DNA of 33,548 nucleotides from Rhodospirillales bacterium (lineage in GTDB: Bacteria > Pseudomonadota > Alphaproteobacteria > Reyranellales > Reyranellaceae), in the NCBI GenBank assembly GCA_947469635.1, contig CANIRG010000014.1, positions 1 through 33,548 on the forward strand. The letters run 5' to 3'. Every line of letters begins with the position of its first letter. The stretch's first letter is position 1. Of this stretch, positions 7,099 to 26,952 are shown in pieces. The notes below the pieces were generated by a model that worked only from the letters and a program-made list of their open reading frames with translations, was not told the origin of the DNA and searched no databases. Both the position numbers and the translations under genes were made by a program.

Positions 7099-7122
7099 CC
7101 TCGATCTCGCAAGGAGCCGGAC

Positions 7123-7989: not shown

Positions 7990-8273
7990 CGGCCAGGCAG
8001 TTCTTCGAGCTGCTGGCCCGCCTGCCGGCCCGCGTCTGGCTCCAGGCGGCGCTCGCCATCGTGGGCTTCGTCGTGCTGGCGGTGCTGGGCTTTGCCGTGA
8101 TCGCGGGCGTGGCGGTCGTCGTGCTGGTCGCGATCCTGCTGTTCAAGGCCAAGGCCTGGCTGGCCGGTCTGTTCGCCGGCCGGCCGCCTGCGCCGCCGCC
8201 GCCCCGCCGCGTCGGCAAGGTGACCGACGTCACCTACGAGATCGTCGAGCGCAAGGACGACGGCCGGCATTAG
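7986..8273 (+). CDS. small membrane protein of unknown function
   Basis: A 95-residue protein that starts with GTG overlapping the stop of the lyase gene (GTGA, 7986-7989). Residues 15-55 are strongly hydrophobic and can form one long or two short membrane helices (LQAALAIVGFVVLAVLG and AGVAVVVLVAILLF). A Pro-rich segment (RPPAPPPPRR) and a charged tail follow, the tail probably cytoplasmic. An ATG 9 codons upstream in the same frame would lie inside the lyase gene and is less likely. I know no family for it. Coupling to the lyase suggests a shared expression unit, not necessarily a shared function. Confidence 0.6.
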   Translation: MTARQFFELLARLPARVWLQAALAIVGFVVLAVLGFAVIAGVAVVVLVAILLFKAKAWLAGLFAGRPPAPPPPRRVGKVTDVTYEIVERKDDGRH

Positions 8274-8280
8274 GCCCGCG

Positions 8281-9039
8281 TCAGCACGACCACTGGAAGC
8301 CGTCGATCACGAAGTGCTGGCCGGTGATGAAGCAGGGTTCGGAGGTGGCGAGGAAGGCCACGAGCTGGGCCACGTCGGCAGGCTTGCCCAGCCGATCCAG
8401 CACGATGCCCTTCTTCATCTCGTCGCCGCGCGACTTGGTGAGGCTGTTGCCGAGCTCGGTCTCGATCACGCCGGGACAGACGGCGTTGATCATGATCTTG
8501 GGGCCCAGCTCCTTGGCGAGCGATCGCGTGAGCCCCAGGATGCCGGCCTTGGCGGCGGCATAGGAATGCTTGCTCACGGCCGAGGTGACGCCGCCCGACA
8601 AGGCGTTCAGCGACGACATGCTGACGATGCGCCCACCCTGCTCCTGTCCGAGCATGATCGGCGCCGCGGCGTGGATGTAGTTGAAGCAGCTCTTGAGGTT
8701 GACCGCGATGGTGCGGTCGAACTCTTCTTCCTTGATCTCGAGGATGCCCTTGGCGTTCGAGGCGCCGGCATCGTTCAGCAGGAAGTCGAGCCGGCCCCAT
8801 TGCTTGGCGACGTCGGCCACGACCTCGTGCGCCCGGGCGAAGGAGGCGACGTCGGCCTGGTAGGTCAGCGCCTTGCGGCCCAGCGCCTCGATCTCACCCT
8901 GGGTGCGCGCCATCTCGGGCTCGAGCAGGTCGACCAGGGCGATGTCGTAGCCGCGGGCCGCCAGCTCGAGCGCGCAGCCCCGGCCGATGCCGCGGGCGCC
9001 ACCGGTGACGATGGCGGTCTTGAGGGGCGCCGTCTTCAC
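8281..9039 (-). CDS. short-chain dehydrogenase/reductase
   Basis: A 252-residue classical SDR and the last gene of a four-gene minus-strand operon. It has the Rossmann motif TGGARGIGRG near the N-terminus, catalytic Ser in SMSSLNALSGG and the YAAAK Tyr/Lys pair. The structural NNAG motif reads NDAG here, an uncommon variant. The aspartate in LVDLL after beta-strand 2 suggests NAD(H) over NADP(H). The start is a GTG that overlaps the TGA of the upstream deacetylase gene (GTGA, 9036-9039), so translation is probably coupled. The substrate is unknown; the operon context suggests oxidation of a hydroxyl intermediate. Confidence 0.85.
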   Translation of the reverse strand: MKTAPLKTAIVTGGARGIGRGCALELAARGYDIALVDLLEPEMARTQGEIEALGRKALTYQADVASFARAHEVVADVAKQWGRLDFLLNDAGASNAKGILEIKEEEFDRTIAVNLKSCFNYIHAAAPIMLGQEQGGRIVSMSSLNALSGGVTSAVSKHSYAAAKAGILGLTRSLAKELGPKIMINAVCPGVIETELGNSLTKSRGDEMKKGIVLDRLGKPADVAQLVAFLATSEPCFITGQHFVIDGFQWSC

Positions 9040-9941
9040 GCCGCGTGCTCCTTGGCGTACTGCGCGACCTCGGCATGGGTGGCGAACCAGACGCTGCCCT
9101 TGGCTCTGGCGTGGCGGATCAGCTCGTCGACGATCCAGATGCGCGAGCGATAGCCGATGATGTGTGGATGCATGGTGAGCTGGAAGAGGCCGCCGTCGTC
9201 CCAGGCAGCGTCGAGCTCGCGGCGGAAGATGTCGAGCACGTCGGTCGGCGGCGTGTAGGGGCGCAGCGAGGAGAAGCGGTGCATCGAGAAGTACACCGCG
9301 TCGTCGCGCACCCATTCCACCGGCAGCTCGACGATGCCGGTGGGCTCGCCGTGCAGCAGCAGCTCGTAGCAATCCTCGTCGGCCATCAGCGACGAATCGT
9401 AGAACAGCCCCAGCTCCTTCTCGAGCGCCAGCGTGTTGGGGCTGAAATCCCACGACGGCGTGCGCATGCCGACCGAGCGCTTGCCGGTGATCGTCTCCAG
9501 CGTGTCGGCCGACTTCATCATGAGGTCGCGCTCGGCCTGGTAGGGCAGCACCGAGTTGAGCTCGTGGATCCAACCATGGATGCCGATCTCATGGCCCTCG
9601 GCCACCAGCGCGCGCTGCTCGTCGGGATAGAGCAGCGCCGTCACCGCCGGCACGTAGAAGGTCGCCTTGACGTCGTGCTTGTCCAAAAGCCTGCGGATGC
9701 GCGGTATGCCGACGCGATTGCCCGACTGGCCCCAGGCCATGCGGCCGATCGACTTGCCGCCGTCGCGCAGCTCATTGGTCTCGTGATCGGAGTCGAAGGA
9801 GAGCGCCACCGCGCAGCGCGCGCCATCCTTCCACGCCTTCGGCCGATAGCTCCGGCCGGCGCGGACCTGGTTGACCAGCTTCTTCCATTGCTCGTCGGCC
9901 CACTGCCAGGGCTCGAGTTGCGGCGCATGTGTGTCGGGCAT
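9036..9941 (-). CDS. polysaccharide deacetylase-family hydrolase (PuuE/PgdA/cyclic-imidase-like)
   Basis: A 301-residue NodB-fold hydrolase without signal peptide, so cytoplasmic. Motif 1 is SFDSDHE (residues 48-54) and motif 2 is IGIHGWIHE (119-127), in the form seen in Helicobacter PgdA-type, PuuE-allantoinase-type and cyclic imide hydrolase proteins, not in secreted NodB enzymes. A cytoplasmic location and an operon with a transporter and two dehydrogenases argue for hydrolysis of a small cyclic amide or imide, or a small N-acyl compound, rather than cell-wall deacetylation. That is inference. The start has AAGGAG 6 bases upstream. The gene ends in the GTGA overlap with the next SDR. Confidence 0.8.
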   Translation of the reverse strand: MPDTHAPQLEPWQWADEQWKKLVNQVRAGRSYRPKAWKDGARCAVALSFDSDHETNELRDGGKSIGRMAWGQSGNRVGIPRIRRLLDKHDVKATFYVPAVTALLYPDEQRALVAEGHEIGIHGWIHELNSVLPYQAERDLMMKSADTLETITGKRSVGMRTPSWDFSPNTLALEKELGLFYDSSLMADEDCYELLLHGEPTGIVELPVEWVRDDAVYFSMHRFSSLRPYTPPTDVLDIFRRELDAAWDDGGLFQLTMHPHIIGYRSRIWIVDELIRHARAKGSVWFATHAEVAQYAKEHAA

Positions 9942-9951
9942 GGCGATCTCC

Positions 9952-10692
9952 TTATGCGAGGGGTGAGCCTGTCACCGGCAGCGTCTGGCCGGTGATCCAG
10001 GAGGCCCGGTCCGAGGCCAGGAACAATACCGCATCGGCGATGTCCTCCGGCGTGCCCATGCGGCGCATGGCGATGCGGTCGGCGAAGGTGCGGCGGAACT
10101 CCTCGCTGTAGGAGTTCCACTGCCATTCGTAGTCGGGGCTGGTGGCCATGAAGCCCGGCGCCACCGAATTGACGGTGATGCCGAAGGGGCCCAGCTCCTG
10201 GGCGAGCTGCTTCACCAATCCGACCTGGCCGTGCTTGGCCGAGGCATAGGCCTGGATGCCGGTCAGGCTGGTGGCGAGCCCGGCGCGGCTGGAGATGGTG
10301 ACGATGCGGCCGCTGCCGGCGTTCTTCATCACAGGCGCCACGCCGCGCACGAAGAGGAAGCAGCCCTTGAGGTTCACGTCGACGATGCCGGCGAACTCCT
10401 CGGGCGTCACTTCCTCCAATGGCTTGGGGCGCTGCCCCAGCACCCCGCCGGCCACATAGGCCAGCACGTCGACCCGGCCGCCGGCCTGGGCGACGACCGA
10501 GTCGATGCTCGCCGGATCGGTGACGTCGACGGCGAGCGCCGTCACGCCCTCGACAGCTTCGATCTCGCCGACCAGGCGGTCGCAGGCCAGCACGCGGGCG
10601 CCCTCGGCGGCGAAGGCGCGGGTGATCGCGCGGCCGATGCCGCGGGCGGCGCCGGCCACGATCACGGTCTTGCCTTCGAAGCTGATCAGCAT
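9952..10692 (-). CDS. short-chain dehydrogenase/reductase
   Basis: A 246-residue SDR. It shows AGAARGIGRAI for cofactor binding, DVNLKGCF, catalytic ISSRAG serine and YASAKHG Tyr/Lys, and a family-typical end (SWITGQTLPVTG). ACDRL after beta-2 suggests NAD(H). The usual NNAG is YVAGG, a divergence also seen in some catabolic SDRs. It lies 4 bases after the MFS gene stop and 10 bases before the deacetylase start, so it is the second gene of the operon. It is not closely similar to the SDR at the operon end; the two probably catalyse different steps. Confidence 0.85.
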   Translation of the reverse strand: MLISFEGKTVIVAGAARGIGRAITRAFAAEGARVLACDRLVGEIEAVEGVTALAVDVTDPASIDSVVAQAGGRVDVLAYVAGGVLGQRPKPLEEVTPEEFAGIVDVNLKGCFLFVRGVAPVMKNAGSGRIVTISSRAGLATSLTGIQAYASAKHGQVGLVKQLAQELGPFGITVNSVAPGFMATSPDYEWQWNSYSEEFRRTFADRIAMRRMGTPEDIADAVLFLASDRASWITGQTLPVTGSPLA

Positions 10693-10696
10693 TGGA

Positions 10697-11968
10697 TCAG
10701 GCCAGCTCGTCGAAGGCGGTCTCCTTCAGCGTCCAGATGACCGCCGTCGAGACCACGGCGGCGGCGATCAGGTAGAAGCTGTGCACCGTCGGCGACTGGA
10801 AGCGGTCGATCAGCCACACCGAGATATAGGGCGCGAAGCCGCCGAAGATGGCGACGGCCAGCGCATAGCCCGAGGTCATCCAGGTCGAGCGGCTGCGCGT
10901 CGGGAAGATCTCGGCAATGGCCGCGGGCCCGGCGCCCGAGAACATCGAGATCAGCAGCGCGAACAGGATCTGGATGGCGATCAACGCCGCCACCGGCACG
11001 TTGCCCGAGTTCAGGTAGGAGAACAGCGGATAAGGCACGACGATGAAGGCGGCGCAGCAAGCGAGCAGGAGCGGCTTGCGACCGTAGCGGTCCGACAGAT
11101 GGCCCATCACTGGGATGGCGCACATCAGCACCAGCAGCCCGATCGTGTTCGCCCACAGCGCCGTGGCGGGCGCGAGCTTCATGTACTTCTGCGTCCAGCT
11201 CGGCATGTAGTTCAGCAGGACGTAGAAGCACACGGTCCAGACGATGGTGAAGCCGAAGGCGCGCGCGGCAAGCGCGAAGCCGCTCGGGCCGGCGGGTGGA
11301 GGCGCTGCCTTCTGCGCCGCCACGCGGGCGTAGTGCGGCGTCTCCTCGATGGTGCGGCGCATGTAGATGCCGACGGGCCCCAGCAGGCCGCCGACCAGGA
11401 AGGGCACGCGCCAGCCCCAGTCGTTCATCTGCTCCACCGTCAGCACGGTGTTGAGAAGGGCGGCGAAGCCCGAGCCCAGCAGGAGGCCCGCGACGACGCT
11501 CATCTGCTGGAAGCTGCCGAACAGGCCGCGCCGCCCGCTGGGTGCCCATTCGACGATGAAGGAGGTCGAGCCGCCCCATTCGCCGCCGGCCGAGAAGCCC
11601 TGCATCAGGCGCGCGATCAGCAGCAGCAGAGGGGCCAAGAAGCCGATGGTGGCATGGGTCGGCAGGATGCCGATCATCACCGTGCCGGCGGCCATCAGGA
11701 AGATGGTGAGCAGGAGTGCGGCCTTGCGGCCGTGCGTGTCGCCCATGCGGCCGATGACGATGCCGCCGACCGGCCGCGCCACGAAGCCCAGGCCGAAGGT
11801 GAGGAAGGTCGCGAGCAGCGCCGTGACCTCGTCCTGGCTGGGAAAGAACTTCCTGGCGATGATGGCCGCGACATAGGCGTAGACGGCGAAGTCGTACCAT
11901 TCGAGCACGTTGCCGATGACCGCGGCGGTCACAGCCTTGCGGCTTTGCGCCGAAGCTGGAGCGTCCAT
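10697..11968 (-). CDS. MFS transporter, metabolite:H+ symporter (MHS/ShiA-ProP) type
   Basis: A 423-residue twelve-helix major facilitator. Family-specific signs are the N-terminal VIGNVLEWYDFAVYAY, the loop 2-3 motif GRMGDTHGRKAAL, and RLMQGFSAGGEWGGS, which is diagnostic of the metabolite:H+ symporter group (ShiA, ProP, KgtP, CitA). Members import carboxylates, betaines or shikimate-like acids. The start is supported by GGGAGA upstream. As first gene of the operon with two SDRs and an amidohydrolase-like enzyme, it probably imports the compound those enzymes degrade. A nearby TATAGC element (about 12015) could promote it, and a better promoter lies about 300 bases upstream. Confidence 0.88.
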   Translation of the reverse strand: MDAPASAQSRKAVTAAVIGNVLEWYDFAVYAYVAAIIARKFFPSQDEVTALLATFLTFGLGFVARPVGGIVIGRMGDTHGRKAALLLTIFLMAAGTVMIGILPTHATIGFLAPLLLLIARLMQGFSAGGEWGGSTSFIVEWAPSGRRGLFGSFQQMSVVAGLLLGSGFAALLNTVLTVEQMNDWGWRVPFLVGGLLGPVGIYMRRTIEETPHYARVAAQKAAPPPAGPSGFALAARAFGFTIVWTVCFYVLLNYMPSWTQKYMKLAPATALWANTIGLLVLMCAIPVMGHLSDRYGRKPLLLACCAAFIVVPYPLFSYLNSGNVPVAALIAIQILFALLISMFSGAGPAAIAEIFPTRSRSTWMTSGYALAVAIFGGFAPYISVWLIDRFQSPTVHSFYLIAAAVVSTAVIWTLKETAFDELA

Positions 11969-17299: not shown

Positions 17300-18061
17300 A
17301 TGGCAAACAGGCTTTTGGGCGTCATATCGGCCCTGCCCGAGGAGTTCACCCATCTCTCCGATCGCTCGGGCCCGTCGCACGAGATCGGCGGATTGGCCTT
17401 CTGGCGCGGCGAGATCGCCGGCCGCGAGGCGGTGTTCGTCGAATGCGGCCCGGGCAAGGTCAACGCGGCGGTTGCCACGTCGCTCCTGCTCGACCGCTTC
17501 GAGTGCCGCGCCCTGATGCTCTGCGGGGTGGCCGGTGGCCTCGATCCGGCGCTGGGCGTCGGCGACGTGGTGGTGGGCGTCAGCAACACCCAGCACGACT
17601 TCGGCCTGCAGAAAGAAGGTGGCTTCGTCACCATCCAGCCCGGCAGCCGGCCATCCCTCGGCGGGGATTGGACGCCGGGCTATGCCGAGTCGGAGCCTTT
17701 GGTGGCGCGCCTGCGCAAGGCGCTCGACGGGCTGGTGCTGGAGGCGCTGCCCGAACAGGTTGGCGCTGGCCGGCGGACGCCCACGATCCATTTCGGCGCC
17801 ATCCTGACCGGCGACTGTTTCGTCAATTCCGACAGCGTCCGGCGACGCCTGCATGCCCAATTCAACGCGCAGGCCGTCGAGATGGAGGGCGGGGCGGTGG
17901 CGCAGGTCGCGCGGCGCTGGGGCGGCGATATCCCCGTCGTGAACGTGCGCTGCCTCAGCGATCTCGCGAGCGCCGAGAGTCATCTCGATTTCCGCGCCTT
18001 CCTGGCCGTGGCGTCGCGCTACGCCTCGCAGGTCGCGCACCGCCTTGCGCCGGCAATCTGA
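17300..18061 (+). CDS. 5'-methylthioadenosine/S-adenosylhomocysteine nucleosidase-like phosphorylase
   Basis: A 253-residue member of the PNP/UDP phosphorylase superfamily. It should cleave adenine from methylthioadenosine and S-adenosylhomocysteine. The N-terminal GVISALPEE matches the catalytic-Glu region of Mtn (GIIGAMEEE), AVEMEGGAVAQVA matches the ribose- and sulfur-site motif AVEMEATA, and RCLSDLA carries the adenine-binding Asp. It is slightly longer than E. coli Mtn (232 residues), with an insertion around residues 95-160. The start ATG lies 10 bases after a TATAGC element. The gene converges on ugpQ with 8 bases between stops. A separate MTA phosphorylase gene lies at 26.1-27.0 kb, so one of the two may have a different nucleoside substrate. 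Confidence 0.82.
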   Translation: MANRLLGVISALPEEFTHLSDRSGPSHEIGGLAFWRGEIAGREAVFVECGPGKVNAAVATSLLLDRFECRALMLCGVAGGLDPALGVGDVVVGVSNTQHDFGLQKEGGFVTIQPGSRPSLGGDWTPGYAESEPLVARLRKALDGLVLEALPEQVGAGRRTPTIHFGAILTGDCFVNSDSVRRRLHAQFNAQAVEMEGGAVAQVARRWGGDIPVVNVRCLSDLASAESHLDFRAFLAVASRYASQVAHRLAPAI

Positions 18062-18069
18062 GCCGGCGG

Positions 18070-18804
18070 CTACTTGCGGTACTGCACGGCGATGTCGGGC
18101 CGGTCGGTCGTGAGCTGGCGAATCGGCTGGGCCATCCAGTAGGCGATATCGTCGGGTTCGTTGGGGACCCAGACGCCCAGCCGATCGCGGCCGAGGCGCT
18201 CGAAGCAGGTCTCGAAGTTCTCGGCCAGCAGGCCCTTCTCGATCGCCACCAGGCAGCCGCCGATGGCATCGAAGCGGTCGAGCGCCGGACCGAGGCCACC
18301 CAGCCGCTCGGCCGACGCCTTGTTGAGCGACGCGAGCACGCGCTGGTGGGGCATGAGACGCCGCACCGTGTCGAGCACCTCGGGCGTGAAGCAGGTCAGG
18401 ATCACCTGCTCCTGCAACCGGCGCCGCACGATCACCTCGATGACCTTGTGCTCGAGGCCGGCCTGCGGCCGGTTCTCTGCGTCGGTCTTGATCTCGATAT
18501 GCAGCTCGACCGCGGAGCCTTCGAAGACATCGAGCACTGAGTCGAGCGAGGGGATGCCTTCGCCATTGCCGCCCTTGAGCTTCGTCCTGCCGAGCTGGCC
18601 AATCGTGAGGTCCTTGACGAGGCCTGTGCCCTCCGTGGTGCGATCGAGGGTCGGGTCGTGGATCACGACAAGCCCGCCGTCGCGCGTGGGGTGGATATCG
18701 AATTCCACCGCTTCGATGCCCAGCGCCCGCGTGCGGACGAAGCCGTCGAGGCTGTTCTCCGGCCAGAGATTGCGCGCGCCGCGATGTCCGACGATCCACA
18801 CCAT
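18070..18804 (-). CDS. ugpQ: glycerophosphodiester phosphodiesterase (UgpQ-like)
   Basis: A 244-residue GDPD-fold enzyme that cleaves glycerophosphodiesters, such as glycerophosphocholine or glycerophosphoethanolamine, to glycerol phosphate and an alcohol. Catalytic and metal residues are in GHRGAR (His7/Arg8 region), PENSLDGF, EFDIHPTRDG and VIHDPTLDRTTEG; ELHIEIKTD supplies another metal ligand. There is no signal peptide, so it acts on imported substrate in the cytoplasm, like E. coli UgpQ. It is the last gene of the dehydrogenase-ugpBAE-ugpQ operon, 19 bases after ugpE. Which glycerol-phosphate stereoisomer it releases depends on the diester; the operon's dehydrogenase suggests glycerol-1-phosphate. 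Confidence 0.92.
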   Translation of the reverse strand: MVWIVGHRGARNLWPENSLDGFVRTRALGIEAVEFDIHPTRDGGLVVIHDPTLDRTTEGTGLVKDLTIGQLGRTKLKGGNGEGIPSLDSVLDVFEGSAVELHIEIKTDAENRPQAGLEHKVIEVIVRRRLQEQVILTCFTPEVLDTVRRLMPHQRVLASLNKASAERLGGLGPALDRFDAIGGCLVAIEKGLLAENFETCFERLGRDRLGVWVPNEPDDIAYWMAQPIRQLTTDRPDIAVQYRK

Positions 18805-18823
18805 GGGTCTTCCGCCTCTCCGT

Positions 18824-19726
18824 CTACTTCCCGCTGTCGACCAGGCCCTTCACCAGCCAGCGCTGCAGCGCCATCACCACGATGACGGGCGGCAGCATGA
18901 CCAGCAGGGCGGCGTTCATGGCGATGTTCCAGGCCGGCTCCGAATCCGACTGCGGGATCAGGTTCTTGAGGCCGATCACGGCCGTGGCCATCGACTTGTC
19001 GGTCGTGAACAGCAGGGGCCAGAGATACTGGTTCCAGCCGTACAGGAAGAGAATGATGCCGAGCGCCACCATGTTCGCCCGGGAGAGCGGCAGCAGCACG
19101 CTCCAGAAGAAGCGCATGGGCGAGGCGCCGTCGATCCGCGCTGCTTCGCAGAGCTCGTCCGGCACGGTGAGGAAGAACTGCCGGAACAGGAAGGTCGCGG
19201 TCGCCGAGGCGATGAGCGGCAGGATCAGGCCGCCGTAGCTGTTCATCATGTTCCAGTCGAGCGTGATCTCGACGCCGAACCAGCGTCCGACGTCGAGCGC
19301 GTCGAGCAGCCATTGCAGCGGCAGGGCGACGTTGGCCACCGCCTCGTAGGTCGGCAGGATGCGCACCTCGACGGGCAGCATCAGCGAGGCGAAGATCAGC
19401 CAGAAGGCGGTCATGCGCCAGGGGAAGCGGAAATAGGCGATGGCGAAGGCCGAGAGCAGCGACACCGCGATCTTGCCCACGGTGATTCCCACCGCGACGA
19501 TGAGCGAATTCAGGAACAGGCGCCCGAGGTTGCCCTTCTGCCAGGCCGTCACCGTGTTGTCGAAGAAGTGCCGCCCGGGCAGCCAGGGCGGCGGGATGGT
19601 GAGCACGTCGGACACGGTGTGTGAGCCCACGACGAAGGCGAAATAGATCGGCAGGCAGACCAGCAGCCCGCCCAGGATCAGCAGGGCGTGGCAGGCGATG
19701 TCGAGGGTGCGGGCGCGTTCGACCAT
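18824..19726 (-). CDS. ugpE: glycerol-3-phosphate/glycerophosphodiester ABC transporter permease UgpE
   Basis: A 300-residue inner-membrane permease with six predicted helices. The cytoplasmic EAA loop is EAARIDGASPMRFFWSVLLP, the coupling helix that contacts the ATPase. The periplasmic loop after helix 1 (FVVGSHTVSDVLTIPPPWLPG) and the C-terminal region fit the UgpE/MalG class. The start ATG is separated from the ugpA stop by one base, indicating tight co-translation. It pairs with UgpA to form the channel; the expected ATPase UgpC is not encoded here. Confidence 0.92.
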   Translation of the reverse strand: MVERARTLDIACHALLILGGLLVCLPIYFAFVVGSHTVSDVLTIPPPWLPGRHFFDNTVTAWQKGNLGRLFLNSLIVAVGITVGKIAVSLLSAFAIAYFRFPWRMTAFWLIFASLMLPVEVRILPTYEAVANVALPLQWLLDALDVGRWFGVEITLDWNMMNSYGGLILPLIASATATFLFRQFFLTVPDELCEAARIDGASPMRFFWSVLLPLSRANMVALGIILFLYGWNQYLWPLLFTTDKSMATAVIGLKNLIPQSDSEPAWNIAMNAALLVMLPPVIVVMALQRWLVKGLVDSGK

Positions 19727-19727
19727 G

Positions 19728-20621
19728 TCAGACGTCGTAGTTGATGCGGCGGTCGGCGTAGCGGAACTGCAGCAAGGTGAGGCCGATGGCGAAGATCATC
19801 AGCAGCACCGACTGGGCCGCGGACGAGCCCAGATCGATGTGCACGAAGCCGTCGAGATAGACCTTGTAGACCAGGATCATGGTGGCGCCACCAGGCCCGC
19901 CATGCGTGACGGCGTCGATGATGGCGAAGGTCTCGAAGAACCCATAGACGAAGTTCATCGTCACGAGGAAGAAGACGGTGGGCCCGATCATCGGCAGCGC
20001 GATGCGGCGGAAGCGCAGCCACGGTCCGGCGCCGTCGACCGCGGCGGCTTCAAGGAGCGAGGGCGGCACGGCGAGCAGGGCGGCCACCAGGAAGATGTAG
20101 TCGTAGCAGATGTGCTTCCACGACGCGGCCAGCGTCACCAGCAGGAAGGCATCGAAGCCGCTGCGGTTGGGATCCCAGGCGATGCCGACCGCCTTCAGCA
20201 CATGGGCGACAGGCCCCACCGAGGGATTGAACAGGAACGCCCAGAGGATGCCGGCGATCACCGGGGCGATGGCATAAGGCAGCAGCACGATGCTGCGGTA
20301 GAGGCCGCGCAGGCGGATGACGCGGTCGGTGGCGAAGGCCAGGGCGCCCGCGACCACGATGGTGAGGATGTTCTGGACCAGCGTGAACCACAGCGTGATC
20401 CAGGCGGCCGAACGGTACTCGGGGCTGAGGAACAGCCTGTGGAAATTGTCGAACCAGACGAACTGCACGCTGGTGCCGAACGCGTCGGTGATGACGAAGG
20501 CCTGCGACAGGGCGCGGACGGCCGGAATGAAGAAGAACAGCAGAAGCACCAGAAGCTGAGGCAGCAGCAGGAGCATCGGCAGGCGCGTCTCGCGGTAGTG
20601 GGCGCGTTTCAGCCCCACCAT
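19728..20621 (-). CDS. ugpA: glycerol-3-phosphate/glycerophosphodiester ABC transporter permease UgpA
   Basis: A 297-residue inner-membrane permease. The N-terminus (YRETRLPMLLLLPQLLVLLLF, split by the first helix) aligns with E. coli UgpA, which supports the start at 20621. A frame extended to 20714 would begin inside ugpB and add an Ala/Arg-rich segment without membrane character. The EAA loop is EAAAVDGAGPWLRFRRIALP. It heterodimerises with UgpE. No Shine-Dalgarno site is visible; the 76-base gap after ugpB holds a GC hairpin, which may lower permease expression relative to the binding protein. Confidence 0.9.
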   Translation of the reverse strand: MVGLKRAHYRETRLPMLLLLPQLLVLLLFFFIPAVRALSQAFVITDAFGTSVQFVWFDNFHRLFLSPEYRSAAWITLWFTLVQNILTIVVAGALAFATDRVIRLRGLYRSIVLLPYAIAPVIAGILWAFLFNPSVGPVAHVLKAVGIAWDPNRSGFDAFLLVTLAASWKHICYDYIFLVAALLAVPPSLLEAAAVDGAGPWLRFRRIALPMIGPTVFFLVTMNFVYGFFETFAIIDAVTHGGPGGATMILVYKVYLDGFVHIDLGSSAAQSVLLMIFAIGLTLLQFRYADRRINYDV

Positions 20622-20650
20622 GCTGCCGCGAGGCGCCGGCCGTGCCCGGC

Positions 20651-20671
20651 GGGCGGCCGGCAAGGCCGCCC
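20651..20671 (-). promoter_or_regulatory. stem-loop between ugpB and ugpA
   Basis: GGGCGGCC (20651-20658), a 5-base loop and GGCCGCCC (20664-20671) form a perfect 8-bp stem. It lies 27 bases after the ugpB stop and before the ugpA start. There is no T-tract. Hairpins after the binding-protein gene in ABC operons commonly protect the upstream mRNA from 3' exonucleases and so raise binding-protein output; that role is inferred here. Confidence 0.5.
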
Positions 20672-20697
20672 CCGGGATTGCTGCTGCCGCGACGCCG

Positions 20698-22023
20698 CTA
20701 GTACTTGCCGGCATTCAGCTTCTCGAACTGCCGCAGGATGTCGTTGCCACGGCGGACCGAGTCGTCGAGCGCCTGCTGCGGCGTCTTCTTCTTAGCGAAG
20801 ACCGATTCCAGTTCCTCGCGCAGCGCGAAGGTCGTCTGCGTGAAGTTGCCGAAGTGGAAGCCGCGGGTGTTCTCGGTCTGGGTGCCGCGGTTGAGCTGGA
20901 GGATGGCGATCTCCCGGGTCGGATTGTCCTTGTAGTAGCCCTCCGCCTTGGCGACCTGGTAGGCCTTGTTGGTGATCGGCACATAGCCGGTCACCTTGTG
21001 CCACCAGACCTGCAGGTCGGGGCTGGCCACGAAGGAGAGGAACTCGGCCACGCCGTCGTATTCCTCCGACTTGTGACCCTTGAGGGTCCAGATCGTGGCG
21101 CCGCCGATCGTGCTGTTGTGGGCGGCGATGCCCTGCTCGTGCGGCATGAAGGTGGCGCTCCACTTGATCTTGGCCTCGCGTTCGACGCTGCCGTGGGCGG
21201 CCGTCGAGGCGAAGAAGGTCGAGCACTTGCCGGAGGTGAAGAGCTGCTCGGGATTGAGGCCCTGGCCTGCGATCTGCATCACGCCGTCGTCGACCCACTT
21301 CTTGAGGCGCGTCACCTGCCCGACGACCTTGGTCTTGTTGTAGACGAACTCGGTGTCGAGCCCGTCGTAGCCGTTGGCCTTGGTGCCGAAGGGCTGATCG
21401 TTGATGATGCTGTAGTTCTCGATCAGGCTCCAGAAGTAGTCGTTGGCCAGAGCCGAGCCGCACTCCGAGATGCCCTTGGTGCGGATCGTGTAGAGCTGCT
21501 GCTCGAACTCCTGCCAGGTGTCGGCCGGGCCGCTGAAGCCCGCCTTCTCGAAATGCTCCTTGTTGAACCACAGGATCGGCGTCGAGGAATTGAAGGGCAT
21601 GCTCATCAGCTTGCCCTTGTACTGGTAGTAGCTGGCGACCGGCTTCACGAGATCGGCCCAGTCGATGGCCTTCTTCTTTTCCGTCAGGAGATCCTGCACC
21701 GGCACGATGGCGCCCGACAGCAGCATGGTCATGAAGCCGCGCTCGTAGATCTGCACCAGCTGCGGATGCTTCTTGGCGCGGTAGGCGGCGATGACGCCGT
21801 TGATCACCTCGTCGTAGTTGCCCTTGTTGGTCTCGACCACGGTGTACTTGGACTGCGAAGCGTTGAAGCGCTTGACGATCTCCGCCACCCGTTCGCCCAG
21901 CACGCCGCCCATGGCGTGCCAGAACTGGACCTCGACGCGCTGCTGCGCCGATGCCTGCCCAGCCAGGCCGACGGCGGCGAGCGCCAGCGCCCCCGCCACC
22001 AGATATCTCTTGAACACACCCAT
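20698..22023 (-). CDS. ugpB: glycerophosphodiester/sn-glycerol-phosphate-binding protein UgpB
   Basis: A 441-residue periplasmic solute-binding protein with a Sec signal peptide (residues 1-26, cleavage likely after GQASA). It is clearly orthologous to E. coli UgpB: VQFWHAMGGVLGERV, KGNYDE, MPFNSSTPILWFNK, STIGGATIW, TGYVPITNKAY, RGFHFGNFTQ, and ELESVFAKKKTPQQALD all have direct counterparts. E. coli UgpB binds glycerophosphocholine and sn-glycerol-3-phosphate. GGGAGGAAACA precedes the ATG. It lies 27 bases after the dehydrogenase gene. Whether the pocket accepts glycerol-1-phosphate diesters is unknown. Confidence 0.94.
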   Translation of the reverse strand: MGVFKRYLVAGALALAAVGLAGQASAQQRVEVQFWHAMGGVLGERVAEIVKRFNASQSKYTVVETNKGNYDEVINGVIAAYRAKKHPQLVQIYERGFMTMLLSGAIVPVQDLLTEKKKAIDWADLVKPVASYYQYKGKLMSMPFNSSTPILWFNKEHFEKAGFSGPADTWQEFEQQLYTIRTKGISECGSALANDYFWSLIENYSIINDQPFGTKANGYDGLDTEFVYNKTKVVGQVTRLKKWVDDGVMQIAGQGLNPEQLFTSGKCSTFFASTAAHGSVEREAKIKWSATFMPHEQGIAAHNSTIGGATIWTLKGHKSEEYDGVAEFLSFVASPDLQVWWHKVTGYVPITNKAYQVAKAEGYYKDNPTREIAILQLNRGTQTENTRGFHFGNFTQTTFALREELESVFAKKKTPQQALDDSVRRGNDILRQFEKLNAGKY

Positions 22024-22050
22024 TGTTTCCTCCCTTCGTTGATTACGTCG

Positions 22051-23418
22051 TCAGGCCACGGCGCGCGTTGGCGCCCAGAAGCCTTTGCCGGCGAACAGCG
22101 CGCCGACGGCCTGGTCGAGCCAGCCGAGGTCGTGCAGTACGTCGAGCAAGGTGAAGCGCCGGCGGATCATGCGGGCGCGTGAATGGTCGGCGGCATGGCG
22201 CGCTGGCGAGACGCCGATGGCATCCGCCGATGCCGGCGCACCGGCGGCTTCGAGCTGGCGGCGCACCGCCGTTGCCGAGGGCAGCCGCTTGCGCAGCGTC
22301 GTCGAGAGGTTGGGCCAGGCGGCCGCGAGAGCCGTCAGCCGGCGCTCGACCTGCGCCGGCGATACGGCCTTGGCCAGGGTCTCGGCTTCGGCATTCTCGG
22401 CCATGAAGGATAGAGGAAACGCCGCCGCCACCTCGTCGCGCAACGTCTGCGGCGACGGCGTGCGTGCCGCCAGTGTCGACGGCGCCATGCGGGAAAGGTC
22501 CTGCCGCAACAACCAGTCGTAGGCCGCCAGCATGGACAGGCAGCCGATGCCGACGCAGGCGCCGTGCGATACAGGCGCACCGTCGACCGCGAGCCCTTCC
22601 ATCTCCCAGAGATGGGCGAACTGGTGGTCGCTGCCGCTGGCCGGCCGCGAGTTGCCGTGCGCCTGCATGGCGAGGCCCGAGACGATCAGGCCCTTCATCA
22701 AGCCTTCCAGCGCATCGCGCCGGCCGCTGCGCACGCCCGACGGATCCGCGAGCCAAGCGGCGAGATTGTCCTGCACCATGGCGAAGGGGCCGGGGTTCAC
22801 CCGCTCCTCGCCCAGCGCATCGGCCAGCATCCAGTCGGCGCCCGCCACGATCTTGCCCACGAGATCGCCGTAGCCCCAGCCCGCCATGGCGGCAGGGGCA
22901 GAGGCGATCACGTCGAGATCGGCCACGATGGCCACAGGTGCGGCGCAGGCCAGCGTGCGCTTGAAGCCGTCGTCGCGGAGCGCGGCGCCCGAGGCGGCAT
23001 AGCCGTCCATCGAGGCCGCCGTCGGGACGCAGACGTACGGCGTGGCCGCCAGCTCGGCGGCGTATTTTGCCAGGTCGTTGAGGACACCGGAGCCGACGAC
23101 GATGGGCAACGCCTGCTGGCTGCGCAACGTGCGCGCCAGTTCGCGGGCCGTCTCCGCCAAGGGCTTCACGCGCGGCTCGCCGCTCAGTAGCACCGGCTCG
23201 GCCTGAGGCAAGCCAGCCACTGAGAGGAGCTCGGCGGTTCGAGCGCCGGCAACGGCCCAGGTATTGGCATCGGCGACCAGCAGATAACGCGTGGCCGGAG
23301 CGACCTGCCGCAGCACGGTCGGCACGGCGGCGAGCGCGCCTGCCCCGATCCGCACATCGCGGGTGGTCGTGGCGGCGCCGACGGCATCGGCGAGCTGGCG
23401 ATCCTGGGACATCTTCAT
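22051..23418 (-). CDS. sn-glycerol-1-phosphate dehydrogenase family protein (AraM/EgsA-like)
   Basis: A 455-residue NAD(P)-dependent polyol-phosphate dehydrogenase of the iron/zinc alcohol dehydrogenase superfamily, AraM/EgsA branch. The family interconverts sn-glycerol-1-phosphate and dihydroxyacetone phosphate. The cofactor GSGVLNDLAKY motif, the metal-site Asp in PTAASMDGYA, and histidines in SDHQFAHLWEMEG and APVSHGACVG are all present. A C-terminal extension makes it longer than Bacillus EgsA (about 394 residues). Start candidates are ATGs at 23418 and 23412; I use the first. It is the first gene of the ugp operon, under a palindromic operator. Placed with UgpB and a phosphodiesterase, it probably oxidises imported glycerol phosphate. 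Another polyol phosphate is the main alternative, given the FGGY kinase opposite. Confidence 0.85.
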   Translation of the reverse strand: MKMSQDRQLADAVGAATTTRDVRIGAGALAAVPTVLRQVAPATRYLLVADANTWAVAGARTAELLSVAGLPQAEPVLLSGEPRVKPLAETARELARTLRSQQALPIVVGSGVLNDLAKYAAELAATPYVCVPTAASMDGYAASGAALRDDGFKRTLACAAPVAIVADLDVIASAPAAMAGWGYGDLVGKIVAGADWMLADALGEERVNPGPFAMVQDNLAAWLADPSGVRSGRRDALEGLMKGLIVSGLAMQAHGNSRPASGSDHQFAHLWEMEGLAVDGAPVSHGACVGIGCLSMLAAYDWLLRQDLSRMAPSTLAARTPSPQTLRDEVAAAFPLSFMAENAEAETLAKAVSPAQVERRLTALAAAWPNLSTTLRKRLPSATAVRRQLEAAGAPASADAIGVSPARHAADHSRARMIRRRFTLLDVLHDLGWLDQAVGALFAGKGFWAPTRAVA

Positions 23419-23440
23419 GTCCCGAATACCAAGCTTTGAG

Positions 23441-23468
23441 ACATGTGTATAGTATACGATACATATGT
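23441..23468. promoter_or_regulatory. 28-bp palindromic operator between the ugp operon and the SorC regulator
   Basis: A dyad centred between 23454 and 23455 has 12 of 14 base pairs matched. Its core GTATAC is flanked by TGTAT and ATACA, with outer ACAT and ATGT arms. It contains a minus-strand TATACT (-10-like) reading toward the dehydrogenase gene, whose start lies 22 bases away. The neighbouring SorC-type regulator is the obvious candidate to bind it. Confidence 0.6.
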
Positions 23469-23507
23469 TCAGAAGCCAGAGCACATTCCCAAATGATGAA
23501 GACACCC

Positions 23508-23620
23508 CACCTAACCCTGAGGAGGCGCGAAGCGCCGTCTCGAAGGGTGGGCACGAGCACCGTGCTTGGGCCGATCCTTCGAGACGCATCGCTACGCGAT
23601 GCTCCTCAGGATGAGGTGAT
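23508..23620. repeat. inverted pair of palindromic (REP/BIME-like) repeats
   Basis: Copy A (about 23508-23551) contains CCCTGAGGAG, hairpin GGCGC-GAA-GCGCC (23524-23536) and GTCTCGAAGGGTG. Copy B (about 23571-23620) is the reverse: ATCCTTCGAGACG, hairpin GCATCGC-TAC-GCGATGC (23586-23602) and CTCCTCAGGATGAGG. A small GCACG/CGTGC hairpin lies between them. Elements of this kind are common between genes in Bradyrhizobium-like genomes. It lies between the operator and the SorC start. Confidence 0.75.
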
Positions 23621-23681
23621 GCTGTTGAATCGGAATACGATCTAGAAGGTAGAGCCAGCGAACAGAGGCGAGCGCAAAAGG

Positions 23682-24635
23682 ATGGCGGACGAGGACGAGC
23701 AGCTGCGTGTACGTGTGGCCTGGCTCTATTTCATGGAGGGGCTGACCCAGGCCGACATCGCCGCTCGCTTGGGCATCACGCGGCTGCGCGCCAACCGGCT
23801 CCTCGGCGAGGCGCGCGAAAGCGGGCTGGTGACCATCCGGGTCAATTCTCCTCTGGCCGGCTGCGTCGAGCTCGAACGTGAGCTGGTGCGAGGGGCGGGC
23901 CTCAAGGATGCCGTGGTGGTGCCGACACCCGACGATCCCGAGCAGGTCACCGCCGCGATCGGGCGCGCCACTGCCGAATATCTCGCCCGGCATCTCGGTG
24001 AGAACCGCGTGCGCGGTATTGGCGTCGGCTGGGGGGCGACGTTGCGCGAGACCATCCGCCACCTGCGCAGCGCCAACCTGAGCGAGCTCAGCGTCAACTC
24101 GATGATGGGCGGCCTGACCCACGGGCTGGAGCTCAACACCTTCGAGATCGCCGGCGAATTCGCCCGCCGCATCAACGGCCAATGCAACTACCTGGCGGCG
24201 CCGATCTATGCCGGCAGCCCGCGGTCGCGCGACACCATCCTGGAGCAGGACGTCTTCCGCGAGACGTTCCAGCGGCTGGCGACCAACGACGTCGCCCTGA
24301 TGAGCGTCGGAGACCTCAGCCGGCGCTCGCTGCTGATCCGTTACGGCCTGCCGCGCGACGTGACGGTGGAGTCGCTTCGGGCGTGCGGCGCTGTGGGCGA
24401 CATCATGGGGACATTCCTCGATGCCAGTGGCAAGCCGGTGAAGCATGCGGTGAACAGGCGCGTGATCGCGCTGCCGGTGGATCGCCTGCGCGACATCGCC
24501 ACCGTGATCGTGGCGTCGGGCGGGCTGAACAAGACGGCGATCCTCGCCGCCGCGTTGCGGGCGAGGCTCTGCTCCGTCGTCGTCGTCGACGAGGCGACGG
24601 CGCGCGCCGTGCTCGGCGTCCTGCGCGGCGGGTGA
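23682..24635 (+). CDS. SorC-family transcriptional regulator (EryD-like)
   Basis: A 317-residue regulator. Residues 10-52 hold a helix-turn-helix (GLTQADIAARLGITRLRANRLLGEA, split across two helices), and residues 60-315 form the SorC sugar-phosphate-binding domain with GVGWGATLRETIRHL, NSMMGGL and TFLDASGKPV. The family includes EryD, SorC and CggR, which sense phosphorylated sugars or polyols. It is divergent from the dehydrogenase-ugp operon and 3 bases upstream of an FGGY kinase. It probably represses one or both units through the palindrome at 23441-23468, with a polyol or glycerol phosphate as inducer. An AGAGGCGAG about 10 bases upstream may serve as ribosome binding site. Confidence 0.88.
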   Translation: MADEDEQLRVRVAWLYFMEGLTQADIAARLGITRLRANRLLGEARESGLVTIRVNSPLAGCVELERELVRGAGLKDAVVVPTPDDPEQVTAAIGRATAEYLARHLGENRVRGIGVGWGATLRETIRHLRSANLSELSVNSMMGGLTHGLELNTFEIAGEFARRINGQCNYLAAPIYAGSPRSRDTILEQDVFRETFQRLATNDVALMSVGDLSRRSLLIRYGLPRDVTVESLRACGAVGDIMGTFLDASGKPVKHAVNRRVIALPVDRLRDIATVIVASGGLNKTAILAAALRARLCSVVVVDEATARAVLGVLRGG

Positions 24636-24638
24636 GGG

Positions 24639-26090
24639 GTGCCGGCGACGTATCTCGGCATCGATGTCGGCACGTCGTCGGTCAAATCCGTTTTGGTGGA
24701 TGACGCAGACCGTGTCGTCGGCGATGCCGATGCGCTCGTGCCGATCTCGCGGCCGCGTCCCCTGTGGTCGGAGCAGGATCCGCTGGACTGGTGGCACGCC
24801 GTCGTTGCCACGCTCGATGCTCTGGCCGTTCGCGAACCCGCGGCGATGGCCGCTGTACGCGGCATCGGCCTGTCCGGGCAGATGCTCGGCGTGACGCTTC
24901 TGGATGCCGCCGACGCTCCGATCCGGCCGGCGCTGCTGTGGAACGACGGGCGTGCCTCGGCGGAGTGCGCCGATCTGCACGAAAGGTTCGCCGACTGGAT
25001 CGATGTCGTTGGCTGCCGGGCGATGCCGGGCTTTTCCGCCCCGAAGCTGCTGTGGCTTGCTCGGCACGAGCCCGCGGCGCTCGCGCGAACGCGCCGGGTG
25101 CTGCTCACCAAGGACTATGTTCGTCTGCGTCTCACCGGCGAGGCCGCGAGCGATCGCGCCGATGCCTCGGCGACGCTGTTGATGGATACCGCCCGTGGCG
25201 ACTGGCACGACGCGATCGTGGCGGCCTGCGGCATCACGCGGGCGCAGCTGCCGCGCCTGGTCGAAAGCGCGGAGGTGGCGGGCGGCCTGCGGGCCGAGCT
25301 TGCGTCGCGCTGGCATTTGCCGATCGGCACGCCTGTCGTCGGCGGCGGTGGCGACAATATGTGTGCGGGCATCGGAGTCGGTGCGGTGAAGGCAGGCGCG
25401 GCCTATATCAGCCTCGGTACGTCGGGGGTCTATTTCGTCGCCAACGACGTCTTCGTGCCGGCACGGGGACAGGGCATGCACACCCACCGCCACGCCGTGC
25501 CGGGGCTTTTTGCCCAGCATGCTGTCGTGTTGAGCACTGGTGCGGCATTGGCCTGGATGGCCGAGCTGGTGCGGGCGTCCGATGTCGCAAGCCTGGTGGC
25601 CGAGGTCGAGGCAGCTTGCCTGTCGCCCGATGAGACGCCCGTCGTCACGCCCTATCTGGCGGGCGAACGCACGCCGCACGACGATCCGACCCTGACGGCG
25701 TCTTTTTCAGGCCTGACCCATTCGACGGGCACCTTGCATCTCGTGCAAGCAGTCATGGAAGGCGTTGCCCTGGCACTGCGCGACGGTCACGACGCGCTGA
25801 CCGGCAGCGGAGCGCGGATCGAGGAGATCGTGCTGACCGGAGGCGGCGCCCGCAGCCCGCTGTGGGCGCGGCTCGTGGCGGCTGCCCTCGGAAAGCCGCT
25901 GCTTCTGCCGGAGGGCGCTCGTGTCGGTCCGGCGCTGGGCGCGGCACGGCTCGCGCGCAAGGGTATCGGCGGGCCGCTGATCGCGGCCTCTGGTGATGGC
26001 GACGCCCGGAGAATAGACGTCGACCCGCGCTTGAAGGATCAGCTGGAACGCAAGCGCGCGGTCTACGCCGGTCGTTCGCTCAAGCCTTGA
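24639..26090 (+). CDS. FGGY-family carbohydrate kinase (xylulokinase-like)
   Basis: A 483-residue ATP-dependent sugar or polyol kinase. Family features are GIDVGTSSVKSVLVD (phosphate 1 loop), GLSGQMLG, PALLWNDGRASAE, the catalytic Asp in GGGGDNMCAGIG, LGTSGVY, and the C-terminal GGGARSPLW adenosine motif. By overall pattern it is closest to xylulokinase, but FGGY specificity cannot be read reliably and erythritol, glycerol, arabinitol or ketose kinases are possible. The start is GTG at 24639, 3 bases after the regulator stop, with GGTGAGG nearby. It forms a two-gene unit with the SorC regulator, and its 3' end overlaps the convergent MTA phosphorylase gene by 11 bases. Confidence 0.88.
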   Translation: MPATYLGIDVGTSSVKSVLVDDADRVVGDADALVPISRPRPLWSEQDPLDWWHAVVATLDALAVREPAAMAAVRGIGLSGQMLGVTLLDAADAPIRPALLWNDGRASAECADLHERFADWIDVVGCRAMPGFSAPKLLWLARHEPAALARTRRVLLTKDYVRLRLTGEAASDRADASATLLMDTARGDWHDAIVAACGITRAQLPRLVESAEVAGGLRAELASRWHLPIGTPVVGGGGDNMCAGIGVGAVKAGAAYISLGTSGVYFVANDVFVPARGQGMHTHRHAVPGLFAQHAVVLSTGAALAWMAELVRASDVASLVAEVEAACLSPDETPVVTPYLAGERTPHDDPTLTASFSGLTHSTGTLHLVQAVMEGVALALRDGHDALTGSGARIEEIVLTGGGARSPLWARLVAAALGKPLLLPEGARVGPALGAARLARKGIGGPLIAASGDGDARRIDVDPRLKDQLERKRAVYAGRSLKP

Positions 26091-26952
26091 GCACGCGCCC
26101 GGCGACGGCATCGAGCTTGGCGATCATGCCGGGCGCGCGCGCCGCGGGGCCCGTGATGAGGGCATGTTCCAGCGCGCGGTCGCAGCCGTGTGGGCAGGGG
26201 GTGGGGCGCGAGTCCTTGAGCCGGGGCGCGATCATCGTGACCAGTGCCTTGGCCTTCTCGGCATTGTCGAGCAGGACGCGGACGATGTCGGAGACCTGCA
26301 CATGGCCATGGTCGGGATGCCAGCAGTCGAAGTCCGTCACCATGGCGACGGTGACGTAGCAAATCTCGGCTTCGCGGGCGAGCTTGGCCTCCGGCATGTT
26401 GGTCATGCCGATCACGTCGCAGCCCCAGCTGCGATAGAGCTTCGATTCGGCGAGGCTGGAGAATTGCGGCCCCTCCATCGCCAGATACGTGCCGCCGAAC
26501 TTGACCGGGAAGCCCGCCGTGCGGGCGCAGTCGTGGACGGCCTCGGCCAACCGGTTGCAGGTCGGGTGCGCCATCGAGACGTGGGCGACCAACCCCTCGC
26601 CGAAGAAGCTTTTCTCCCGCGCGAAGGTCCGGTCGATGAACTGATCGACGACGACGAAATGGCCGGGCGGCAGGTCCTCGCGCAGCGAGCCGCAGGCCGA
26701 GAGCGACAGGATGTCGGAGACGCCGACGCGCTTCAGCGCATCGATGTTGGCGCGGTAGTTGATCGAGGTCGGTGAATGGAAGTGGCCGCGGCCGTGCCGG
26801 GGAACGAACACGAGGTCGAGCCCGTCGAGGGTGCCGAACAGGAACTCGTCGGAGGTCTCGCCGAACGGCGACGCCACCCGCCGCCACTCAGCCTTCTCGA
26901 GACCGGCGATATCGTAAACGCCGCTGCCACCCAGAATCCCCAACACCGTCAT
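26080..26952 (-). CDS. mtnP: S-methyl-5'-thioadenosine phosphorylase
   Basis: A 290-residue trimeric-type PNP/MTAP superfamily enzyme that converts methylthioadenosine and phosphate to adenine and methylthioribose-1-phosphate in methionine salvage. Diagnostic motifs are LGGSGVYDIAGL, VPRHGRGHFHSPTSINYRAN (phosphate and ribose site), AMEGPQFSSLAESKLYRSWG, IGMTNMPEAKLAREAEICY, and VTDFDCW, where Asp in place of Asn marks 6-aminopurine use. GGGAGAAGC precedes the ATG. No other mtn genes (mtnA, mtnB, mtnD) are adjacent. Its coexistence with a nucleosidase-type gene at 17.3 kb is notable. Confidence 0.93.
   Translation of the reverse strand: MTVLGILGGSGVYDIAGLEKAEWRRVASPFGETSDEFLFGTLDGLDLVFVPRHGRGHFHSPTSINYRANIDALKRVGVSDILSLSACGSLREDLPPGHFVVVDQFIDRTFAREKSFFGEGLVAHVSMAHPTCNRLAEAVHDCARTAGFPVKFGGTYLAMEGPQFSSLAESKLYRSWGCDVIGMTNMPEAKLAREAEICYVTVAMVTDFDCWHPDHGHVQVSDIVRVLLDNAEKAKALVTMIAPRLKDSRPTPCPHGCDRALEHALITGPAARAPGMIAKLDAVAGRVLKA

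Follow-up and report, generated by a model that had tools for sequence, protein, structure and literature searches.

A stretch of 33,548 nucleotides from a Rhodospirillales bacterium of the family Reyranellaceae (contig CANIRG010000014.1 of assembly GCA_947469635.1; the whole stretch is called the window here) carries, between positions 18070 and 26090, a compact locus in which a dehydrogenase gene of the EgsA/AraM family heads the genes of a Ugp-type importer and a phosphodiesterase of the GDPD family, with a SorC-family regulator and an FGGY kinase divergent from them. With a probability only slightly above one half, this is an operon devoted to the catabolism of glycerophosphodiesters from which sn-glycerol-1-phosphate (G1P) is obtained. 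The elements of this reading that the sequence supports directly are the gene order, its conservation, the family membership of the products, the residues of the binding pocket and the active site, a single operator-like site in each genome searched, and GlpD.

Gene order, conservation and local regulation

Five genes lie on the minus strand. The EgsA/AraM-family dehydrogenase gene comes first (22051-23418; start ATG at 23418, possibly 23412) and is followed by the genes for a UgpB-type binding protein (20698-22023), a UgpA-type permease (19728-20714), a UgpE-type permease (18824-19726) and, last, a cytoplasmic-type GDPD of 244 amino acids (18070-18804; PF03009, 97 bits against a gathering score of 23.6). 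Because the spacing between neighbors is only -17 to +27 bp, the five look like one transcription unit. On the plus strand, the SorC-family regulator (23682-24635; PF04198, 189 bits) is divergent from EgsA and is followed by the xylulokinase-like FGGY kinase (24639-26090). Family scans confirmed all seven genes where the original prediction had placed them. Its Ugp and UgpQ names are sound at the level of family membership, less so in the NCBIfam equivalog tests: UgpE passes (PRK10973, 359 bits, cut-off 297), whereas UgpA (PRK10561, 292 bits, cut-off 335), UgpB (PRK10974, 381 bits, cut-off 411) and the phosphodiesterase (UgpQ model PRK09454, 71 bits, cut-off 264) fall short. Genes of the PNP_UDP_1 phosphorylase family flank the locus on both sides (17300-18061 and 26080-26952), the second encoding an S-methyl-5′-thioadenosine phosphorylase (507 bits, cut-off 437).

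A scan of genome contigs for EgsA gave 37 loci (designated by L numbers below, genomes by G numbers). UgpB, UgpA and UgpE come after EgsA in 20 of these, and GDPD stands next wherever the contig extends (that of L009 stops inside UgpA). By group, the 20 are 12 Reyranella or Rhodospirillales-type, seven Microvirga and one Stella. The other 17 comprise an EgsA-GDPD pair (L014), a distant EgsA with a canonical Ugp system (L042) and 15 without a Ugp link. Within the Reyranellaceae, EgsA is found in 16 of 75 genomes and a UgpB of 73-100% identity in 15; all 15 fall among the 16, with the two genes adjacent by coordinates. The sixteenth genome (G448) encodes a UgpB of 58% identity away from EgsA, in operon L117, and in its EgsA locus, L014, EgsA is directly followed by GDPD and accompanied by a different, 2-aminoethylphosphonate-like transporter in place of UgpBAE. 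A 2-aminoethylphosphonate-like binding protein and a fused permease after GDPD were seen in L014 (1-4921) and also in L011, L013 and L019.

The arrangement exceeds chance, since UgpB-UgpA-UgpE neighbors accompany EgsA in 20/37 loci and in 15/16 genomes of the family. Farther afield the picture is different. A class-wide search for the EgsA family returned 39 places in 33 of 385 genomes, with a threshold that admits other dehydrogenases too, because the control matched eight of 14 known genomes, E. coli included. Neighborhoods were inspected for 33 of these places and the window (34 in all; G285, G116, G073, G363 and G190:C15 were left out), and six of the 33 (L097, L101, L103, L104, L105, L108) had no match to the EgsA queries. 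Only three of the 34 were Ugp-linked. The coupling thus belongs to one subclade and not to the EgsA family as a whole; the conserved co-occurrence for which the original prediction had proposed a genome search is seen in the Reyranellaceae and is uncommon in the class sample.

Local regulation is suggested by a 28-bp near-palindrome in the SorC-EgsA gap (23441-23468, no strand assigned), of the form ACATTTGTAT-N8-ATACAAATGT. Of the 15 Reyranellaceae-type gaps (located by tblastn coordinates), 12 contain it according to a script, and the other three (L013, L015, L121) show a weaker form by eye. The script did not report it in the seven Microvirga gaps, in L030, in Stella or in the four plasmid loci, where the related sequence is weaker; half-sites can be made out by eye in L030 and the four plasmid loci. 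When seven genomes were searched with at most one mismatch, each gave one place, always just upstream of EgsA, and a reversed control pattern gave none. It should be noted that the pattern was drawn from such gap sites, so that the location follows by construction; what the search adds is that the seven genomes hold no second site. The palindrome points to a dedicated local SorC switch, of which it would be the candidate operator. The reading of the genes as one conserved, locally regulated unit for import, cutting and oxidation is supported, and with it the import, cutting and oxidation suggested in the original prediction. The same gap contains in the window a palindromic REP-like (repetitive extragenic palindrome) repeat pair (23510-23616); none was noticed in the other gaps compared.

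The dehydrogenase and the binding pocket

The best solved relative of the window EgsA is the G1P dehydrogenase 9h4x (E 1e-42; 35% identity across 292 residues). The protein carries the motifs SMDG, GYGDLVGK, SRPASGSDH and SHGA, and the full signature of Asp, His, His, RPxSG and GDxxGK matches the solved chains 9h4x and 5fb3. The Asp and the two His are presumably the metal ligands. The assignment as an EgsA-type dehydrogenase made in the original prediction is supported at the active site. In a tree of 67 rows (with long-branch warnings for L102, L042, 5fb3, L095, 9h4x and L079), the window falls in a clade of 36 rows (support 100/98), apart from a second clade of 24 rows (96/83). Among the 20 rows for which the alignment was displayed, all ten of the window's clade keep SxDG, GD..GK, RPASG-[DE]H and HG, as do 9h4x and 5fb3 (RPCSG there). 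The five displayed rows of the 24-row clade (L041, L078, L096, L098, L099) never have RPASG and have Asn for the Asp in four cases. The operons of four members of that clade (L092, L096, L098, L099) also contain genes for CUT1 sugar transporters, SDR and FGGY proteins, and this second proteobacterial AraM-like clade is probably not a G1P dehydrogenase. The signature is kept in the archaeal-like class members L074 and L077; the solved chain 4rgq has RPASG and lacks the Lys of GDxxGK.

The company kept by the window's EgsA clade elsewhere includes glycerol phosphate genes. Two Micropruina loci have an EgsA of this clade, and in one of them (L038) GlpA, GlpB and GlpC, all above their equivalog cut-offs, lie about 5 kb away. 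On two Rubrobacter plasmids, relatives of 41-43% identity are found near an annotated glycerol-3-phosphate dehydrogenase/oxidase, a dihydroxyacetone kinase and a HAD-IIA hydrolase. These plasmid loci (L128, 11959-13347; L129, 7165-8511 and 11986-13344) have one or two annotated sn-glycerol-1-phosphate dehydrogenases, with HAD-IIA, dihydroxyacetone kinase, FGGY kinase, RpiB and glycerol-3-phosphate dehydrogenase-like genes around them. A glycerol-phosphate chemistry for EgsA is favored by these comparisons but not proven, and G1P is the best single candidate for its substrate, with chances close to even. The window protein belongs to the Fe-ADH family like Bacillus subtilis AraM and archaeal EgsA, with which it has in common the PT..SxDG, GxGD..GK, RPxSG-EH and HG motifs. 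The known enzymes make G1P for lipids, EgsA for those of archaea and Bacillus AraM for heptaprenylglyceryl phosphate (PMC5059525), whereas the window enzyme is placed to consume it.

The importer offers a second line of evidence. Residues described for the UgpB of Phaeobacter sp. MED193 (PMC12718374) were mapped onto the window UgpB by alignment. Y64, E88, S143, W191, S266, G303 and Y342 are kept, while W188 has given way to an [N/G/T/S]-D-[F/Y] motif that is one residue longer, and R393 to His. In a UgpB tree of 38 rows (clamp columns included), the window belongs to a clade of 31 rows with support 100/100, two of which are identical and come from one genome. The phosphate-coordinating Tyr64, Ser143, Ser266 and Tyr342 are present in the window and in all 31 rows. 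Of the two Trp residues that form the clamp, Trp191 is kept in 31/31 rows; Trp188 is lost and the Asp carried in 31/31, the equivalence being approximate, as in the two alignments Trp188 is matched either to the Asp or to the preceding residue. Arg393 has become His in 18 of the 31, the window included. All seven rows outside the clade have both clamp Trp and Arg393; the exceptions among them concern other residues, L106 differing at Glu88 (Ala) and Ser143 (Val), and L118 at Glu88.

What such changes do to binding can be gauged from two studied proteins. The MED193 UgpB, part of a Ugp-type CUT1 importer like that of the window and identical to it in the phosphate-binding residues, binds G1P with a Kd (dissociation constant) of 2.36 uM and sn-glycerol-3-phosphate (G3P) with 0.80 uM, and mutagenesis found its Trp residues key for holding both (PMC12718374). 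It has both clamp Trp and binds the free phosphates; the window protein, in contrast, has an altered clamp and an EgsA gene at the head of its operon. The UgpB of Mycobacterium tuberculosis is closer in this respect: it has Leu205 at the place of an E. coli clamp Trp and binds glycerophosphocholine, a diester, and reintroduction of the Trp did not restore binding of glycerol-3-phosphate (PMC4929945). The replacement there is a Leu, whereas the window has the Asp motif with one extra residue. The comparison suggests that the ligand of the window UgpB is a diester or a larger molecule. Free G1P is less likely than a diester to be the transported form, because the pocket is altered at its glycerol end. 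The original prediction, an import of G1P-containing diesters, is supported in so far as a Ugp-type protein has been shown by experiment to bind G1P (PMC12718374).

The phosphodiesterase has the family motifs HRG, PEN, EFD, HD and EIK at residues 7, 15, 34, 49 and 104, and its nearest solved chain by sequence is 3ks5 (E 3e-25). Family scans of the window found no ugpC ATPase gene in the cluster. The same genome (88% complete, in 585 contigs) encodes two more UgpB proteins; they are 45% and 42% identical, and their operons contain homologues of UgpA, UgpE and UgpC as well (L106 and L107, the UgpC homologue of the latter being cut by the contig end). It also encodes GlpD (708 bits) and, on another contig, PhoD (350 bits). 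A PhoD-type phosphatase gene adjoins the operon or its kinase in nine of the 20 loci (L007, L008, L010, L012, L015, L016, L017, L018, L030). In E. coli, the corresponding genes are ordered ugpBAECQ and are under Pho control. Like the window locus, that operon combines the importer with a cytoplasmic GDPD, but it is without EgsA; the window, for its part, is without ugpC, has SorC, and its GDPD is no UgpQ equivalog.

A proposed pathway and its rivals

From these features we infer the substrates, the direction of the EgsA reaction, the sharing of an ATPase, and the binding and effector of SorC, as follows. Phosphodiesters would be freed outside the cell from lipid or cell-wall debris, for which the adjoining PhoD may serve in 9/20 loci. 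The altered-pocket UgpB would bind a polar glycerophosphodiester, and UgpA and UgpE would import it with a UgpC ATPase encoded elsewhere. The cytoplasmic GDPD would split the diester into glycerol phosphate and an alcohol. EgsA would use NAD(P) to oxidize the sn-1 isomer to dihydroxyacetone phosphate, and the sn-3 isomer would go to GlpD. GlpD is not known to use sn-glycerol-1-phosphate. The alcohol half might pass to the FGGY kinase or to other polyol enzymes where these are present. SorC, finally, would bind the palindrome between sorC and egsA and respond to a phosphorylated intermediate. For the narrower proposition, that this constitutes a dedicated bacterial pathway for phosphodiesters of glycerol in its archaeal-type enantiomer, in which the Asp-motif UgpB clade is specialized for a polar glycerophosphodiester and feeds it to a catabolic G1P dehydrogenase switched by a SorC of its own, we would put the chances somewhat below even.

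Several findings weigh against a G1P operon. The changes at Trp188 (31/31) and Arg393 (18/31) fall on residues that hold the glycerol, so the ligand may be no glycerol phosphate at all. EgsA scores 168 bits against the NCBIfam G1P dehydrogenase model PRK00843, well below the cut-off of 413, a cut-off that no genome passed among the 385 of the class sample. EgsA of the window's clade also occurs in sugar or polyol loci (L020, L022 and L032-L036; in the last five its neighbors are sugar transporters, HAD hydrolases and SDR or FGGY genes in varying combinations). G1P alone does not readily account for the XylB-like kinase next to SorC. This kinase passes the xylulokinase equivalog TIGR01312 (462 bits, cut-off 380), its best solved match is the xylulose kinase 2itm (E 1e-115), and it stays below the E. 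coli-type XylB model PRK15027 (415 bits, cut-off 912). Sister operons of the same UgpB clade tell against G1P as well. Of the 27 records that a plasmid search returned, 12 were from Rhizobium or Nitratireductor; six of those 12 and one from Leisingera were inspected. All six Rhizobium or Nitratireductor loci have SorC-UgpBAE-GDPD with a HAD-IA phosphatase and without EgsA (the Nitratireductor locus with PhoD), and two of the five Rhizobium records add an SDR and a pentulose kinase. L117 has a D-arabinitol-dehydrogenase-like (DalD-like) enzyme after GDPD (327 bits, cut-off 600) and no EgsA. The Geobacteraceae locus L042 cuts both ways: its canonical UgpB (449 bits, cut-off 411), UgpA, UgpE and divergent UgpC beside a distant EgsA-family gene (6499-11161) would be a separate EgsA-Ugp coupling and as such counts in favor of the proposed operon, but that EgsA-family protein has Asn at the presumed metal Asp and an APASG motif.

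The main rival reading is that of a longer polyol. A tetritol or pentitol phosphodiester, for example from other teichoic acids, would be imported, GDPD would release a polyol phosphate for EgsA to oxidize to a ketose phosphate, and the free ketose would go to the XylB-like kinase. A polyol-phosphate route had been named as the alternative from the start, and it is strengthened by the repeated occurrence of this transporter clade next to pentulose kinases, an SDR and an enzyme resembling D-arabinitol dehydrogenase. A window-type FGGY kinase is found beside SorC in 13 of the 20 loci (that of L030 only 32% identical); it is absent from six and hidden by a contig end in one. Three of the six (L024, L027, L039) have a rhizobial-type pentulose kinase nearby (720 bits, cut-off 409), and in the Microvirga loci L024 and L039 both this kinase and an SDR of rhizobial type lie just past the EgsA operon. 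Relatives of the DalD-like enzyme of L117, 63-65% identical, adjoin EgsA in L020 and L022, and an Asp in place of the clamp Trp could bind extra hydroxyls. Yet EgsA has the signature of a G1P dehydrogenase, unlike the AraM-like proteins of polyol-type operons (L096, L098, L099), which lack RPASG and in two cases of three have Asn for the Asp; the FGGY kinase is not universal; and a relative from the window's EgsA clade stands in the GlpABC locus. On balance we regard the longer polyol as unlikely, while taking it seriously.

The sister operons also permit a reading that unites the two sets of neighbors: GDPD would give glycerol phosphate, which EgsA oxidizes or HAD-IA dephosphorylates, and a polyol, which goes to the polyol dehydrogenase and the FGGY kinase. 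In the other reading of the same neighbors, the phosphorylated product itself is a longer polyol phosphate. The Rhizobium pRL9-type operon, SorC-UgpC-UgpBAE-GDPD-HAD-SDR-FGGY, resembles that of the window in its UgpB clade, GDPD and SorC-type regulator, and differs in having a HAD-IA phosphatase instead of EgsA and a UgpC of its own. Across the loci of the UgpB clade, HAD-IA (above 100 bits) occurs in 0/29 EgsA rows and in 7/7 other rows, the match in L117 being 35% identical and seen only as a stop-to-stop frame. This exchange was rejected as independent evidence: the 29 rows include duplicate genomes (L094, L119, L120, L122, L123 and L124 repeat L016, L007, L009, L013, L015 and L012) and L014, which is without Ugp, and the exchange may be a single event on the UgpB tree. 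Outside the UgpB clade, L020 and L022 have EgsA and HAD-IA together. A search for papers about the pRL9 locus of rhizobia and about polyol functions of the family gave nothing useful.

The remaining explanations are each improbable. The original prediction named soil archaeal remains as a plausible source, and in favor of archaeal lipid as the main natural substrate it can be said that EgsA makes the G1P of archaeal lipids (PMC5059525) and that marine recycling of archaeal G1P has been argued for (PMC12718374). The archaeal source was dropped as unnecessary, because the head group of bacterial phosphatidylglycerol has the sn-glycerol-1-phosphate stereochemistry too, and lipoteichoic acid is built from repeats of this isomer (PMC7086022), so that debris of bacteria would be enough and is the simpler source. 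As a main source, archaeal lipid is given little credence. Such lipids moreover require ether cleavage first. If EgsA were a passenger in an ordinary Ugp system for phosphate starvation, the family-level resemblance of UgpBAE and GDPD to Ugp would be accounted for. The two other ugp operons of the genome (L106, L107), however, keep both clamp Trp in UgpB, and EgsA and this UgpB occur together in 15/16 genomes with an adjacent SorC and one operator-like site per genome, so we find this account similarly hard to credit. The least probable is that EgsA works in the direction of synthesis, making G1P for an ether lipid as Bacillus AraM does for heptaprenylglyceryl phosphate (PMC5059525), with the Ugp genes mere neighbors. 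PF01884, the synthase family, does match in 59 of 75 family genomes (29 at the 23.9-bit cut-off, that of the window included), but all 59 matches span 43-60 of 226 model positions, within 159-221, at about 20-26 bits. They were not accepted as a synthase and were read instead as the shared phosphate-binding end of a barrel. The apparent co-transcription of EgsA with an importer and a phosphodiesterase also speaks against synthesis.

Published G1P use and the meaning of the operon

Binding of G1P by UgpB is already published (PNAS 2025): both UgpB and GpxB of MED193 bind it, MED193 grows on it, and a double mutant loses that growth (PMC12718374). That study treats G1P as archaeal; in the text covered it describes no catabolic G1P dehydrogenase, and a term search found the words EgsA, AraM, phosphatidylglycerol and teichoic nowhere in it. 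The bacterial sources are described elsewhere. Lipoteichoic acid derives from phosphatidylglycerol, and its intact polymer is not cleaved by the stereospecific GlpQ, which acts on the other enantiomer; PhoD is an endo-acting teichoicase on wall teichoic acid (PMC7086022). In open-licence PubMed Central texts we found no description of an EgsA-Ugp operon, of a catabolic G1P dehydrogenase tied to uptake or of any G1P-consuming enzyme.

In closing, the UgpB clade with the altered clamp offers a well-defined example, open to experiment, of how a thoroughly studied importer may come to accept other substrates. If the proposed pathway is true, the carbon of bacterial phosphatidylglycerol and lipoteichoic acid, and of archaeal debris besides, is recovered as the enantiomer that GlpQ does not release. 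A dedicated operon of this kind would close a gap in the recycling of phosphorus and carbon, and a catabolic function would be added to the bacterial AraM/EgsA family.

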